NCBI GenBank assembly: GCA_018663505.1
Contig: JABJQG010000014.1
Coordinates: forward strand, 62,001 to 126,000
DNA length: 64,000 nt
Direction of reading: 5' to 3'
DNA from: Pseudobdellovibrionaceae bacterium
GTDB lineage: Bacteria; Bdellovibrionota; Bdellovibrionia; Bdellovibrionales; UBA1609
The position numbers and the translations under genes were made by a program. The notes under the pieces are model-generated. The model was not told where the DNA came from and ran no database searches. It saw nothing but the letters and a program-made list of their open reading frames with translations. Position 1 is the stretch's first letter, and each line of letters begins with the position of its first letter. Shown in pieces: positions 8,276 through 15,174 of the stretch.

Positions 8276-9553
8276 TCAGTAGAAGTTAACTTCAAAATTA
8301 TCTATTAAAGTATCACTATTAGAGTAGACACTTAACGTAATTTTGGTTTTTGACTTTGAATCTCTCTGAAGTTCTCTCCCAAACTCCCCCCTAAATACAT
8401 GTTTTGAAAGGTTGAGATTGCCTTTTTTGAAAAGATTTATAAGGTCAAATAGAACATCTCGATTAACGGGTAAGTGAGAGTGATAGGAGCCTACTAATTT
8501 AGCACTAGTTTCCACACGGATAACCCATGTTTGGGCAACTCGCTTCTTTAAAATTTCGATGTCTTGCTCTATCAAATTTCGATGTGAAGAGTTTAAGTCA
8601 CTACTTATTAAAAATACAGGATTTATTATTTTACTTAAATCTAATTTGATTGGTGCTTTATATGAGTTTAAGTCATCATTAACACAAAAATTTGATTTGT
8701 ATTTTTTAATATACTGGTTTGATTCAAAAGGTGTTCCATTAAGAAATTTATCATGAAGAAATGTTTTGCACATGTATATATCATTTAAAAAATAACCCAC
8801 GGATTTAGAAGTGTCAGATTTTCTAAAAATTCTTTTCCCATCTTTAGTTGTCTTGCTATATTTTTCAATACTTGAACTTTTAATATCTATTGTCTCGTTA
8901 GACGTAACGGAATTTTCCTTTTTGCCATCAGCTAAGTCAGCTGCAAAAAAATATGGACTAGATTGTCCATTCCATAAAACTAGATGACTAACTAAATTGG
9001 GATGTTTGAGGCTAAACAGATATGCTTGTCGTACTCCAAAAGAGTGACCTAAAATCATTAATTTTCTGGGTTTGGGAGACGGTACCAGCATTGATTTATA
9101 ATCTTTAAATACTAAATTTACGTCTTCAATAAAACTTTCGCTTAGAAAATGTTCGTACCGAAAATAGGGGTAAAAATCATCAAGTCCAAGATGAAAAGAC
9201 GCTCCTGAGCCACGATGATCAACTTGAAAAAATGGGTATTGTTTAACTCTATACCAAGAAAAATAAAGTTCCGAGAATGAAAAAATGCTATTGGTGAACG
9301 GCTTTGACCCTTTGATAGTCAGTCCAGGCCCTCCTGGAAAATAAGTGACAACTAAACTATTGTCTAAAACTGACCCTATAGTTCCTTTATACTTTACTTC
9401 TACAAATTGGTTGTCGAGGGACTTATATATTAGAGGCACCTGTGTAGAAAAATCATGAACTCGCACACTTGGCCCCATAGGATGTGCAAACCGGGAAATG
9501 CTTAACATTAAAAGCAGTAGAAAAATATTTTTTTGTTTAAAATTAATAAGCAA
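8276..9553 (-). CDS. Secreted alpha/beta hydrolase (S33 peptidase-like)
   Basis: This 425-aa protein starts with a signal peptide (residues 1-25). It then shows the landmarks of proline-iminopeptidase-type alpha/beta hydrolases: the oxyanion-hole segment FPGGPGLTI near residue 73, the VDHRGSGAS turn near 109, and the nucleophile elbow GHSFGVRQ near 170 with the catalytic Ser. Likely acid and base residues are Asp in LISSDLNSS and His in SYHSHLP. Substrate is unknown; peptide or ester cleavage outside the cytoplasm is plausible. It lies between the TA remnant and the integrase remnant, so it may be island cargo. Confidence 0.78.
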   Translation of the reverse strand: MLINFKQKNIFLLLLMLSISRFAHPMGPSVRVHDFSTQVPLIYKSLDNQFVEVKYKGTIGSVLDNSLVVTYFPGGPGLTIKGSKPFTNSIFSFSELYFSWYRVKQYPFFQVDHRGSGASFHLGLDDFYPYFRYEHFLSESFIEDVNLVFKDYKSMLVPSPKPRKLMILGHSFGVRQAYLFSLKHPNLVSHLVLWNGQSSPYFFAADLADGKKENSVTSNETIDIKSSSIEKYSKTTKDGKRIFRKSDTSKSVGYFLNDIYMCKTFLHDKFLNGTPFESNQYIKKYKSNFCVNDDLNSYKAPIKLDLSKIINPVFLISSDLNSSHRNLIEQDIEILKKRVAQTWVIRVETSAKLVGSYHSHLPVNRDVLFDLINLFKKGNLNLSKHVFRGEFGRELQRDSKSKTKITLSVYSNSDTLIDNFEVNFY

Positions 9554-9877
9554 AGTTTACCTTTCAACAAAATATTCGTTCGACTCAACTTAACTACTTT
9601 TAGAGCCAGCCTATAGCTCAATTATGCAAATACTATGCTAGAATAAACGGTTTCAGATTTAAAATATGGATATTTGATACCTTTTGGTGTGTAAATGTAG
9701 GTGCAAAAAGTGGCACTCTAACGTTCAATTTTCTGAAAAACCAATTTTAAGCCAATTTAGTTAGTCTGGTATTTATATCAAAAAACGCTCTAGACTAGGC
9801 CCCCATAATGAGCTGAAACAAGTCTTGTCAGACTTCCATTATTTAGAGAAAGGGCCAGGAGCGACACAGTGGCTATT
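9554..9877. other. Intergenic region, no feature recognised
   Basis: About 320 bases between the hydrolase start and the recombinase remnant. I see no ORF, terminator or RNA here beyond the presumed hydrolase promoter. Confidence 0.4.
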
Positions 9878-10375
9878 TCAGAAGAAGTTGAGGTTAAATA
9901 TGGGGTTACGCCGGAAGTTTCTTTTCCTCTTGTTATAGCGCTGTGTAGTTCTTATATCAGCATGGTTTACTAGCTGAGAGACATAGTAAATATCCTCACC
10001 ATTTTCGATTAAGGAGCTAATAAGTGTGGCTCTGGCGCTATGTGGAGTGATTCTTTTTTCTTTACACACTTTTTTGGCCCATTTGCCAACGACATACCCC
10101 AAAGCCGTGTGGCTTAGTCTCTTTTTAATTTCACCACCGTGTGAATTTTTTGTAGGTTGAAATTAAAAGTCCTCGTCAGATATTTTTCTACCTATTTTTT
10201 CCATCCACTTAACGTACTCATCAACGTAATAACCTGCCGTTGGGTGGACCGGTAGCTTATATACCTTTTGTCCTTTGCCAGTATATCTAATGTAGCGAAT
10301 ACCTTCATTCATTTGGTAGTTCACCATTTTAAGATTCCTCATATATCCAAAATATCTCCCAACCTCTTAAAATAC
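9878..10375 (-). pseudogene. Tyrosine recombinase (phage-type integrase) remnant
   Basis: Reading leftward from about 10375, one frame gives EVGRYFGYMRNLKMVNYQ, then the conserved beta-hairpin TGKGQKVYKLPVHP, then ISDEDF followed by a TAA stop (10163-10165). The same frame then continues through HSAR (the HxxR box), LVNHADIRTT and the tyrosine in TQRYNKR. Only the catalytic C-terminal half is present; the first Arg box and core-binding domain are missing, and another in-frame stop precedes 10375. The in-frame stop separates the KGQK-hairpin from the HxxR..Y part, so the enzyme is dead. It is the clearest mobile-DNA trace in the accessory region. Confidence 0.8.
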
Positions 10376-10454
10376 TGGTGTATATCAAGAGTTGTGTTAG
10401 GACAAATCTTTGCTCGTTAAATATATGAGGACTGTCTCAGCAGAGGGGCGCAGG

Positions 10455-10568
10455 TCAAACCACTACTTTAAAACCAAGGTTTGGACCGATGACTTAAGCA
10501 AAAGTGATCGGACCGAATAGCACAGGCCACGAAAAAAATTGTGGCTCGTAATCAAGGGGTTTAAATTT
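10455..10568 (+). repeat. Intergenic repeat element, left copy (inverted pair)
   Basis: This is a diverged copy of the element at 13405-13525, in opposite orientation. Shared blocks in order are TCAAACCACT, TTTGGACCGATGA (13 of 13), AAGTGAT-C-GG, CAGGCCACG, a small hairpin closing with GTGGC, and TAATCAAGGG. It contains two pairings: GGTCAAACC with GGTTTGGACC, and GCCACGA with TTGTGGC. No ORF runs through it. It is not a known family to me. Confidence 0.7.
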
Positions 10569-10718
10569 CAAAAAAATGATTAATCTGCCTTTGGAGTTTA
10601 GAGTTAGGCGGGTGTTCTTTGGGCTGTAAGCCATACAAGTTGCTTAACCTGCACAAGCTTCAAAAATTGGGGCAATGGATATGTTTGTCAAATTTCAATT
10701 TACTTTCTTACTGGAAAT
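10569..10718. other. Spacer downstream of secreted-protein gene
   Basis: About 150 bases between the repeat element and the stop of the next minus-strand gene. I see no clear terminator or ORF. Confidence 0.35.
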
Positions 10719-11615
10719 CTAATCCAGTAATTCTAATAAACACTTTTCACTTGGCTGGTGATAGATATACTTGTCTTTGCAATCTACCCAAGATACAAGT
10801 TTTAGCTTGATTTGAACTCTTTTTAATTTTTCAGATTTTCCCATATCAACAAATGCTTTACTATCAATTAATATGACTGACTTTTTATTGAATAGGCTCC
10901 TGGCATCAAGAGTCTCGTATTTGACGTATCTTGGATAGTTTGTTGGCCAATCGGCAGAGTTACCAAGAATAATTCCTTTAGATTCATTTGATTTTATAAA
11001 GTGACTTATCCCATTATAAAACATCTGTCTCAGTCCCATTGATCTTGGGTGATGCACGGGCTTAAATCCGTCATTATATATTTGAACAAAGATTGGCTTA
11101 TTCAAATCAAAACTTGGTATATTCACTTTAAACTCCCTTTGACGTAACCAGCCAGGAGTGTAAGAGTTAAATTTACTTGTACCGTTAAAAAGGGCGATTT
11201 CTTCCTTTCTAAGGCTCCCTTGCCCTTTAAAGTTTAAACTTAACTGATTATTTTCATATTTGCCCAAATGTAAAGCGTGCCCAATTGTAGCCCTTTCATA
11301 AACATCGTAAAGATCCGAATCTTTAGTAAAGATATATTCACTTGGATAGGAGGAAACAGGGAACTGCCCTACCGTTTTCATTTTTTCACAGCCTTTATCT
11401 ACTAAAGGTTCTTTTGATTGACAGAAGTTTTCAGAGATTAAAATATACATTTTATAATTGAGTTTAAATCTAAATTGGGGTTTATCCTGAAAAGTTTTCT
11501 GTACGCTTTTAGCAGAGACTGTAGAAACTTTAACATATTCATGAGAGCTTGCGTGAGCTAAGATACACTGAAAGGCGAAAAATAAAGATAATTGTACAAA
11601 ATAAAATATATTCAT
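10719..11615 (-). CDS. Secreted protein, unknown
   Basis: This 298-aa protein has a Sec signal at residues 1-23 (FAFQCILAHASS). The mature part is beta-rich and basic, with two Cys pairs (residues about 64-75, CQSK...GCEK, and CKDK...KCLL at the C-terminus). No catalytic motif or family is recognised. A conserved upstream element (11648-11743) shared with the FGE-like gene precedes it. It is divergent from the secreted protein at 12085, and both lie inside an inverted repeat pair. Confidence 0.62.
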   Translation of the reverse strand: MNIFYFVQLSLFFAFQCILAHASSHEYVKVSTVSAKSVQKTFQDKPQFRFKLNYKMYILISENFCQSKEPLVDKGCEKMKTVGQFPVSSYPSEYIFTKDSDLYDVYERATIGHALHLGKYENNQLSLNFKGQGSLRKEEIALFNGTSKFNSYTPGWLRQREFKVNIPSFDLNKPIFVQIYNDGFKPVHHPRSMGLRQMFYNGISHFIKSNESKGIILGNSADWPTNYPRYVKYETLDARSLFNKKSVILIDSKAFVDMGKSEKLKRVQIKLKLVSWVDCKDKYIYHQPSEKCLLELLD

Positions 11616-11647
11616 AAATTCCTCGATTTAAAATTCTTAAAAGAAAC

Positions 11648-11743
11648 TAACACAAATTGATCTAAATTAGGGTTTAATTAAAAAAAATTATAATTTTAGT
11701 GTGGGCAGATTTGTCCACGTATAAAACTTACACGATCAAAAAA
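11648..11743 (-). promoter_or_regulatory. Conserved upstream element, copy 1
   Basis: On the plus strand the blocks are TAACAC-N2-ATTGA-N2-TAAATTAG (11648-11670), a hairpin GTGGGCA/TGTCCAC (11701-11718), then exactly 12 bases and CACGATCAAAAA (11731-11742). The same blocks recur at 14677-14762 with identical hairpin-to-CACGATC spacing. It lies just upstream of the minus-strand gene ending at 11615, so a promoter plus operator or an mRNA leader is likely. Confidence 0.6.
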
Positions 11744-12084
11744 ACAATGTTAAAGATTCCTGGTCTCACGGAATTCCTGTGCTTTAAGCTATTTTCAGCC
11801 AAATCGAGAAAAATTTTGAATAATCTAAGGAGCTTTAGTGAACGAGGCCAGTTTTGGTGATTTTGGATCGAAAGGCTCATCTTAAAATCAGAGGTATGTC
11901 AGAATATCACTATCTCAGAGGCTAAAAGTCAAAATCTGTCTATATTTCATTTGTTTGACTTGCTTTTCTTTTCAACAACTAGTGTAATTCTAGACGCGGT
12001 GTAATTTGTTAAACATTGTTTTTATGGAAATTGAGTATTTAAGTTACAAGCTCTAAATATGTTTTGAATAATTAAGGGGGAAAT
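11744..12084. other. Divergent intergenic region with nested hairpin
   Basis: The region between the two divergent secreted-protein genes holds a nested stem (TTAAAG at 11750 with CTTTAA at 11782, enclosing ATTCC/GGAAT). The remaining sequence is AT-rich with no ORF. The ribosome site AAGGGGGAAAT precedes the GTG start at 12085. Confidence 0.4.
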
Positions 12085-13404
12085 GTGAATAAAATTTTAT
12101 TAATATTTGCTATGATAATAGCTAGTCATTTTGCTAGAGCTACAGCTAACTGGGCAATGGCACCAGGTGATTATAGTGTATTTAAAGAAAGAAACTTTTA
12201 TAAAAATAATTGGCAGTTTTGGCAAAAACAAGGCGAAATATTTATCTCAGGAATTGAGTTTTTCAATGCGGGCTATAAATATAATAAATTTCGCTTAATT
12301 AAACTAGACATTAATGGCCAACTATTACAACAAGTTCCTATTGACTCTACTTACGCTTATAGCAAAACAAAAAGAATTACAGGGACAAATAAACTCGCTT
12401 TTTTTGTTTATGGCGGTATTGAAATTTTAGATCTTGACAGCTTGGAGTTTGTTCAAAAGATTAGCTTCCCTTATGGTCAATACAATTACTGCTGCATGAA
12501 CGGAACCGCTTTTGATCTTTTCAATGATAACGGGAAAAATTTTGCGATAATACTTCATAACGACAGAGTTAATAATAAAATTAAATCATTTGTTGCAACA
12601 TATGAACTTAATACTGGTAAAATGCATAGTTTAATTGAGCTTGATGAAGGTTTTGAACTTAAGTCAAATGTATTTTCAAGACAAAACAATCATTTGATAA
12701 TGGTTGCCGGTTTAAAGAGGAATACAAGAAATGAAGATTATTACTCTCTTTACACATTAGACTTAACAAGTGGTAAGGTAATAACAAAAAGAGATCACAC
12801 TTCTTGTCATATCAAAGCGTTATCTAAAAACCTATACAAAGACAAAAACAGTTTAAAAACCGTTATACCTGTAGGAAATGGTTGTGGAGATAAAATTGAT
12901 CTAAAAGATAGTAGGTTTAATTTCAAAGAAGGGAGCGCTTTAATAGATGTTATGACACTAGAGATTAGTAAGATCGTTTATGCGAAAGAACCTGAGTCAT
13001 GGACTTGGTTTTCACACGCAACATATTCAGTGCCAAATACGTCATTTGTGCTTGGAGGTGACATTGGTATGTGGAGTCAAGATGCTTTTTTAATTGATTT
13101 TGTCAGTGATAGTATTGTTTCACGTCCCCAAGCTGAGCAGGTTTTTAAGTATAAGGGTAAATCACTCGCCTTTGGATTTTATCAAACAACTGACATTAAA
13201 GGCGGAGAAATAGCCAATACCTGGGACATACATATCTATGATATTTTGACTGGTGAAGTTCTTGTATCTCAAAAAAATGTTAATTCTGGTCTTGCTACTA
13301 TAAAAGAGGTCTATGTTATTGGGGATCAAATTTTTCTTGCAACGGGTTCTTTTCATATTACAGTGCCCTATAAGCCTAAAGTAGCATTATATAGAATTTA
13401 TTAA
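12085..13404 (+). CDS. Secreted protein, probable beta-propeller-like repeats
   Basis: This 439-aa protein starts at GTG after AAGGGGG, with a signal peptide at residues 1-20 (LLIFAMIIASHFARATA). The rest alternates short beta-type segments with conserved-looking turns such as LDLDSLEFV, YELNTGKMH, YTLDLTSGKV and YDILTGEVL. That spacing is reminiscent of a WD/PQQ-like propeller in which each blade ends in a Thr-Gly or Ser-Gly turn. No enzymatic residues are visible. It is divergent from the secreted protein at 10719, and its stop touches the right-hand copy of the inverted repeat element. Confidence 0.6.
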   Translation: MNKILLIFAMIIASHFARATANWAMAPGDYSVFKERNFYKNNWQFWQKQGEIFISGIEFFNAGYKYNKFRLIKLDINGQLLQQVPIDSTYAYSKTKRITGTNKLAFFVYGGIEILDLDSLEFVQKISFPYGQYNYCCMNGTAFDLFNDNGKNFAIILHNDRVNNKIKSFVATYELNTGKMHSLIELDEGFELKSNVFSRQNNHLIMVAGLKRNTRNEDYYSLYTLDLTSGKVITKRDHTSCHIKALSKNLYKDKNSLKTVIPVGNGCGDKIDLKDSRFNFKEGSALIDVMTLEISKIVYAKEPESWTWFSHATYSVPNTSFVLGGDIGMWSQDAFLIDFVSDSIVSRPQAEQVFKYKGKSLAFGFYQTTDIKGGEIANTWDIHIYDILTGEVLVSQKNVNSGLATIKEVYVIGDQIFLATGSFHITVPYKPKVALYRIY

Positions 13405-13525
13405 TGTAATATTAAAACCCTTGATTAATGGCCACGTTTGTATACGTGGCCTGAGCCTTAACTACCAATCACTTAGACTGAGCTCATCGGTCCAAAATTA
13501 AGTCGAAACCAAGTGGTTTAGACTT
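13405..13525 (-). repeat. Intergenic repeat element, right copy (inverted pair)
   Basis: This inverted counterpart of 10455-10568 starts right at the stop codon of the secreted-protein gene. It contains hairpin GGCCACGT/ACGTGGCC (13430-13451) and, on the minus strand, the block TTTGGACCGATGA. The innermost pair of the GGCCACG stem is T-A here but A-T in the left copy, a compensatory change. Confidence 0.7.
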
Positions 13526-13530
13526 TTTTT
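13500..13530 (+). terminator. Rho-independent terminator of the 12085 gene
   Basis: A stem AAGTC-G-AAACC / GGTTT-A-GACTT with loop AAGT is followed by a run of T on the plus strand. It forms the outer end of the right-hand repeat element. Confidence 0.75.
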
Positions 13531-14632
13531 ATTTACAAACTTCCATAGCTAGTGAATAGCTAAGCTTATTTCTTAGCTTTCTATTAAGTATTAATTGTCC
13601 AGTAACAGGATTAACTGCTTTGAAATGTAATCGCCCTTTAAAGTCTAAGTTTAGTTCAGTTTCTAATCTTTCGTCTTTAAATTGAATTTTACTTCCTTGG
13701 CAATATAATTCAATTTTCCTATCGCGCCTATATCCTTCACCAGTTTTTATTGAAAAGGAGACCCAATTTAAATAAGTAGTAGAATCAAAAAAAGCATACC
13801 ATCCTGGCTCTTTCTCGATAAGAGTGAATTTAACATGAGTCTCAGAGCTACTACCCCAAGTATCTTCATCTACCCAAATCCCTCTTGTTAAGTTTGCCAA
13901 AAATTCTGACTTACACTTATTATCATTTTCAGCTGGAGCGTTGTTAGGAACTCTAATTAATCGTAACCCTACATTTGAAAAGTTATTAACAGGATCATAA
14001 CTTGCATCTGACTTACAGTCATTAGGTTGGCTATGGCTTCCTCCACCAAATGCTCTTAGCTTTGGTGAATAACCAAGTCCATAACCTCGTCTATTCATAA
14101 GAAGATGGACTTCAGAAGTCGCCAATTCTGCCGCATTTCCATGTACATCGTAAATATCCCATAGATTTGGATTTAATAAACCAACAGGTTGACCTGGCGA
14201 ACGCGCACTGTGATTTTTGCAATAACCAAATTTTGGCAACTCATTTTGGTCATCACCAAATGAGTACTCAGTCTGTGTTCCTGCTCTTGCCATGTATTCC
14301 CACTCTGCGTAAGTAGGATACCTATATAAGTAGTCTGGATCTGTATTGTTTTTTAAGCAAAGGTACAAATCTGGATAATTATAAGTAAACTTAATTGGAT
14401 GGCTCTTGTATTCACCATGAGGGTCTTTATATGGAACAAACCCAGTAACCTTTTTAAATTGCTCTTGTGTGACCTCAGTCTTTTGAATTTCAAAACCTTC
14501 CACGTATGTTTTTTTCTCATTCTTATCTAGAAATCCACTTGGAACTTTTACAAAGTCTGAAGGCTGAGCCATTGTGTAATGAATAGGTAAGACAATAAGC
14601 AAAAATAATAATTTCCATCTCGGAGCCTTCAT
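13529..14632 (-). CDS. Secreted FGE/SUMF1-fold protein
   Basis: This 367-aa protein has a formylglycine-generating-enzyme-like domain at about residues 25-230: VTQEQFKKVTGF, YPTYAEWEYMARAGT, the WDIYDVHGNAAEL block and NVGLRLIRV. The C-terminal 130 residues are an extra beta-rich domain. I do not see the paired catalytic cysteines of true FGE, so it is probably a binding or structural member, as with many bacterial FGE-fold proteins. I chose the start at 14632 because GAAAAGGAG precedes it and the signal peptide (LLFLLIVLPIHYTMA) then begins properly; the 20 upstream codons look spurious. It shares an upstream element with the 10719 gene. Confidence 0.75.
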   Translation of the reverse strand: MKAPRWKLLFLLIVLPIHYTMAQPSDFVKVPSGFLDKNEKKTYVEGFEIQKTEVTQEQFKKVTGFVPYKDPHGEYKSHPIKFTYNYPDLYLCLKNNTDPDYLYRYPTYAEWEYMARAGTQTEYSFGDDQNELPKFGYCKNHSARSPGQPVGLLNPNLWDIYDVHGNAAELATSEVHLLMNRRGYGLGYSPKLRAFGGGSHSQPNDCKSDASYDPVNNFSNVGLRLIRVPNNAPAENDNKCKSEFLANLTRGIWVDEDTWGSSSETHVKFTLIEKEPGWYAFFDSTTYLNWVSFSIKTGEGYRRDRKIELYCQGSKIQFKDERLETELNLDFKGRLHFKAVNPVTGQLILNRKLRNKLSYSLAMEVCK

Positions 14633-14676
14633 GTTTTTCTCCTTTTCTAGAAAACAGTTTAAGACGAAATGGTATT

Positions 14677-14762
14677 TAACACTCATTGACATAAATTAGT
14701 AGATCTACTTCTAATAAACTGCGGGCAGGCTTGCCCACCAATATTTTTTTCACGATCAAAAA
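14677..14762 (-). promoter_or_regulatory. Conserved upstream element, copy 2
   Basis: Plus-strand blocks are TAACAC-N2-ATTGA-N2-TAAATTAG (14677-14699), hairpin region GCGGGCA/TGCCCAC (14721-14738), 12 bases, then CACGATCAAAAA (14751-14762). It matches the element at 11648-11743 and lies 45 bases upstream of the FGE-like gene. Confidence 0.6.
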
Positions 14763-14856: not shown

Positions 14857-15045
14857 CTAAGCAGGTTTAGCCCATGAACCTTGATATCCAGTTAGGGCTC
14901 GTGAATATGCACCATAGGAAGATAACCCGCTCTTATGTGCTCCAGCCGCTCTTTCAGCCATCTTTTTCACTGAACAACCATTCTGTATCAAGGCTATAAT
15001 ACTTAATATGATAAACCCTCTAAATAAATCACTTAAAATTGACAT
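14857..15045 (-). CDS. Small membrane-anchored or lipoprotein-like peptide
   Basis: This 62-aa protein starts at 15045, where CAAGGGGGAATAAAG provides the ribosome site. One hydrophobic segment (FRGFIILSIIALIQNGC) ends in a Cys that could be lipidated, although the residues before it (QNG) are a poor lipobox. The tail KKMAERAAGAHKSG then SYGAYSRALTGYQGSW is glycine/aromatic-rich. No family is recognised. It lies between two secreted-protein genes on the same strand. Confidence 0.5.
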   Translation of the reverse strand: MSILSDLFRGFIILSIIALIQNGCSVKKMAERAAGAHKSGLSSYGAYSRALTGYQGSWAKPA

Positions 15046-15174
15046 CTTTATTCCCCCTTGCATTATTTAATCCCATGAAAGGCTATATAATTGTATATCA
15101 CAACGCGTACATCAAAAAATACAAACACTTAGAACCCTGGGTCGGTAGTTGAGCAATTCAAGATAAAATTCTAT

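Follow-up and report, generated by a model that had tools for sequence, protein, structure and literature searches.

What is the short sequence that stands in two opposite copies at positions 10451-13525 of the window, and why does it enclose two divergent genes? The window is the whole stretch of DNA analysed, 64,000 nucleotides from a Pseudobdellovibrionaceae bacterium. An earlier note on this DNA saw an inverted repeat of about 115 bases and read it as the border of a mobile cassette or as a paired control or termination structure. We followed the repeat through this genome and the genomes of its relatives.

The repeat is genuine. A search within the window finds a 124-bp inverted repeat of 68.5% identity (E about 1e-12), and the pair scores 46 in a matched-scoring alignment, where the best of 500 shuffles reaches 15. 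Model-based borders refine each copy to 118 bp (copies a and b; Table 1). The sequence blocks listed in the earlier note occur in the same order in both copies, and TTTGGACCGATGA is exact in each, with no further exact match in the window. Of the two hairpins said to be kept, the GGCCACG/CGTGGCC hairpin is indeed kept and covaries, but the first one is strong in copy a and missing from copy b. The reported change of a closing pair from T-A to A-T is seen in the GGCCACG/CGTGGCC hairpin, among other swaps, and this covariation supports the proposed selection on structure.

Between the copies lie only the two divergent genes, as described, both with secretion-like N-termini. The N-terminus of the minus-strand product was judged by eye and went unflagged by a crude signal-peptide filter. 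Neither product has a match in Pfam, NCBIfam or PADLOC. On the far side of copy b is a gene for an FGE-sulfatase-domain protein. Its stop codon is 3 bp from the copy, as is that of the enclosed plus-strand gene, so a gene outside the module is as close to copy b as one inside it. The next gene encodes a small membrane protein whose homologues stand directly upstream of an element-linked serine resolvase on contig C58 of this genome (58% identity by tblastn) and on contig C83 of the related genome G023 (found by HMM). Because of this homology, copy b may belong to a related module without the recombinase. Copy a is adjoined by a decayed tyrosine recombinase that matches an IS91-associated integrase; its ORF 9878-10102 matches PF00589 (E=1.5e-10), and the upstream recombinase part was read by eye.

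Table 1. Features at and around the two element copies, in window positions.
Feature	Position	Strand	Details
Decayed C-terminal part of a tyrosine recombinase	9878..10330	-	Frame broken; adjoins copy a
Truncated end of an IS3-family IS	10341..10459	-	Abuts copy a terminus; 119 bp identical to two C58 ends
Element copy a	10451..10568	+	118 bp; R1 118.3 bits, R2 107 bits
Terminal repeats of copy a	10451..10568	+	AAACCACT...AATCAAGGGG
Covarying hairpin of copy a	10451..10568	+	GGCCACG/TTGTGGCT
298-aa protein of unknown function	10719..11615	-	Points at copy a; secretion-like N-terminus by eye
439-aa secreted protein of unknown function	12085..13404	+	Stop codon 3 bp from copy b
Element copy b	13408..13525	-	118 bp; R1 121 bits, R2 115.4 bits
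387-aa FGE-sulfatase-domain protein	13529..14692	-	PF03781 E=2.8e-15
68-aa membrane protein	14857..15063	-	Homologues directly upstream of element-linked serine resolvase, C58 and G023 C83

An undescribed family of extragenic palindromes

Searched in full with BLAST and covariance models, the genome (3.78 Mb in 72 contigs, 97% complete) yields 11 strong and two weaker copies of the element. The earlier note had looked to further copies beside secreted-protein genes as support for mobility, and many of these copies do stand beside such genes. The strong copies (85 bits or more) are on contigs C24 (two, those of the window), C49 (two), C4, C21, C51, C52, C56, C59 and C62; both weaker ones are on C58. 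Outside the window the copies are mostly single, and the C49 pair is in direct orientation.

We searched the order with R2, a covariance model built from 14 sequences that holds the closing helix plus the hairpin. It matches 7 of 141 genomes, all in one taxonomic family (this genome and six relatives). There are 12 matches here, nine in G127 (some at the same place on both strands), four in G023 and single matches in G120, G126, G019 and G022. Element length is nearly always 116-119 bp. The copies have in common imperfect terminal inverted repeats, conserved around CCxCTTGATT...AATCAAGGG, a nearly invariant AG...TGA core near the middle and the covarying hairpin. The family consensus structure shows a palindromic closing stem together with this hairpin, and some elements are symmetrical enough to match on both strands. 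Paired cells make up 78.9% in the structure control, against 72.5% in shuffles and 24-48% when the structure is slid; cells with both sides changed number 18 against 8.0.

An Rfam covariance-model search of the elements gave zero matches. The 3'-half pattern of the commonest subtype is unmatched in viral contigs, and a phage origin was rejected on this ground. The same pattern has five hits in GTDB species genomes, in unrelated phyla; this is close to the estimated chance number and gives no sign of spread across bacteria. Our search of the open-access literature found no description of such elements. These extragenic palindromes of about 118 bp at convergent gene ends are an undescribed family.

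Some loci deserve separate mention. On C49 (L061), two related secreted-protein genes (8311-9219 and 9780-10391, plus strand) each have an element downstream, equally oriented, and form a two-unit tandem array; a third paralogue with a partial element lies about 6-9 kb beyond. Loci L064 (C51, 6003-11961), L066 (C52, 2273-8207) and L156 (5960-7998), from two genomes, have mobile-element-like genes in common near their elements. The products are about 480, 290 and 580 aa long, the last being a large serine recombinase on C51 and C52.

Gene ends, insertion sequences and possible exchange at the element

The element lies where two convergent accessory genes meet with their 3' ends. Across 30 elements, 52 of 57 neighbouring gene ends face inward, towards the element (p=6e-11). 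About half of the stop codons either overlap an element edge or are within 10 bp of one. Among the 57 neighbours the crude signal-peptide filter flags 36; for the remaining ORFs of these loci the figure is 100 of 267 (p=0.0006).

The termini are also specific insertion points for an IS3-family IS. Wherever this IS occurs in the genome (four places), one of its ends adjoins an element terminus: once on C24 (Table 1), twice on C58, where a full IS with its IS3 transposase is present, and once on C49, where a 27-28-bp remnant is left. The junction is of the same kind at each place, GTTT(T)GACCTGCGCCCC. Other ISs have this habit. Some ISs, of the IS3 family and others, insert exclusively at REPs, which lie between convergent genes (PMC1525189), and IS711 is attracted by the Bru-RS palindromes (PMC2266754).

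Mosaic elements and one duplicated gene suggest that accessory genes have been joined to different element halves and partners, at or inside the element. The strongest mosaic is the pair C49_1 and C58_1, with 92% identity in the left half and 28% in the right (p=4e-10 among 462 comparisons); C58_1 matches the element weakly in its right half, so this mosaic may include some decay. The left half of the C52 element is nearest to C24b (87%); its right half is nearest to elements of G127 and G019, in another genus (73%), the best match in its own genome being 59%. In G127, one gene for a 115-aa secreted protein is found at two loci (proteins 94% identical). The DNA similarity of these loci spans the gene and ends in the terminal repeat, and beyond that point both the element type and the partner gene differ. 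A toxin-antitoxin-like gene pair common to C4 and G023 keeps its similarity as far as the stop codon. On C4 this codon forms the element edge; in G023 an IS3-type terminal motif comes after it.

A core locus, an acyl-CoA dehydrogenase gene and its neighbours, carries an element and accessory genes in G023 and, in the congeners G120 and G121, different genes without an element. Conservation there extends to one flank only, so the locus has no clean empty site. Neither circles nor inversion nor a clean empty site was seen among the elements.

A linked serine resolvase

We searched 47 genomes of the family for the serine resolvase encoded on C58, which resembles DNA invertases and the gamma-delta resolvase. 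Resolvases at least 70% identical to it are encoded by six genes in four genomes, all four of which carry elements (Fisher p=0.0002 for the association by genome). All six loci have the same layout: the resolvase gene, one or two genes downstream in the same direction, then an element. They are C58 (with the IS in between), G127 C194, G127 C16, G023 C83, G023 C162, where the element is a weak match of 24 bits, and G019 C96. None of 16 resolvases at 41-60% identity is near an element, even with filters off. Gaps that looked element-like by eye after two distant resolvases (L162 and L172) were rejected, as they gave zero R2 matches with filters off.

The association by genome is partly shared ancestry, which does not explain the proximity. 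A common location in islands could contribute to it. Resolvase and elements have accessory regions and a few genera in common, so the linkage could be hitch-hiking. In this genome the resolvase is on an element contig only at C58 (2 of 13 copies).

A Tn3-family res site is about 115-120 bp long, and the linked enzyme is likewise a small serine recombinase of the gamma-delta/invertase kind. The elements, as candidate sites, differ from res in having no obvious subsites and in standing at gene 3' ends instead of beside the resolvase promoter. The small serine resolvase is the best candidate enzyme for the element, on which it would act.

Competing explanations and meaning

We tentatively favour a new family of large extragenic palindromes that would form recombination seams at the 3' ends of accessory genes; the candidate enzyme is the linked serine resolvase. 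The element would be a seam for both recombination and insertion. Accessory genes, mostly for secreted proteins, would be joined at or inside it to different halves and partners, and the resolvase encoded one or two genes upstream would be the recombining enzyme. We infer both the seam role and the action of the resolvase on the element. Integron-like gene capture, in which a small serine resolvase and not a tyrosine integrase would join accessory genes at a symmetrical 118-bp site serving the 3' ends on both sides, seems to us unlikely.

It is possible, if doubtful, that the element is a selfish or neutral palindrome of the REP or Bru-RS kind, tolerated only at convergent gene ends and used as an IS target, that joins no genes and has the resolvase as an island passenger. 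Like REP/BIME and Bru-RS sequences, it is a dispersed extragenic palindrome between convergent genes at which an IS3-family IS inserts and nowhere else, here in four of four cases (PMC1525189, PMC2266754). It differs from them in its fixed length of about 118 bp, its low copy number, its unlikeness to RAYT-flanking palindromes and its link to a serine resolvase. This explanation also sits poorly with the constant gene order at six of six resolvases, the mosaic halves, the gene common to two element types and the stop codons that overlap both element edges. The REP/RAYT system itself was rejected because the RAYT-like loci carry different inverted repeats that bear no relation to the element. 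The RAYT-like Y1 transposase genes number six (L127-L132, on C31, C1, C24, C60, C14 and C18), and most are flanked by inverted repeats of their own. The element resembles a MITE (e.g. TIMEs) as a short non-coding sequence with terminal inverted repeats; by eye no target-site duplication is evident, and no transposon with these ends was found in the loci read.

A bidirectional terminator or 3'-UTR RNA element of convergent genes, kept for its structure, would account for the position between convergent stop codons, the covarying hairpin and the palindromic closing stem. Against it, a consensus scan finds no terminator-like site (GC stem and T run) at copy a or copy b, which also gives no support to the paired terminator proposed earlier, and Rfam holds no match. 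Hundreds of convergent pairs would be expected at this genome size, yet there are about 13 copies, and a terminator has no need of 118 conserved bases. We regard this explanation as quite improbable.

That 10451-13525 forms a transposable cassette, with one element inverted at each end, is very unlikely. The inverted pair does enclose two genes, but the other copies are single or direct, each between the 3' ends of convergent genes, the pair has no second copy, and the outside gene at 13529 is just as close to copy b (gap 3 bp). The link to mobility in the earlier note is supported; its cassette bounded by an inverted pair is not. The inverted arrangement is two seams that happen to lie back to back here; the copies are not the ends of a single transposon.

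Finally, attC sites, whether in a chromosomal integron or in integrase-less clusters, are hardly credible. The element does have a VCR-like length, an imperfect dyad, a place immediately behind the 3' ends of small accessory genes, a putative cassette-like exchange of its neighbours and, on C49, a two-element direct array with related genes. But both attC boxes together occur in none of 27 copies (RYYYAAC, R'', in none and GTTRRRY, R', in one), the flanking genes run towards the element from the two sides and not in a single direction, and no integron integrase (TIGR02249) exceeds the cut-off here or in the related genomes, as none does in any control genome. The best TIGR02249 score in the genome, 114 bits, is that of an IS91-linked integrase, a broken tyrosine recombinase that lies with an IS91-like transposase at the end of C27 (L106, 7792-9840, minus strand).

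Should the seam reading be right, these bacteria would have a dedicated site for assembling variable sets of genes, most of them for secreted proteins, and with it a way of shuffling genes outside the integron. Even on a modest reading, the gain is an undescribed family of extragenic palindromes that has its own IS and can be detected elsewhere with a covariance model.
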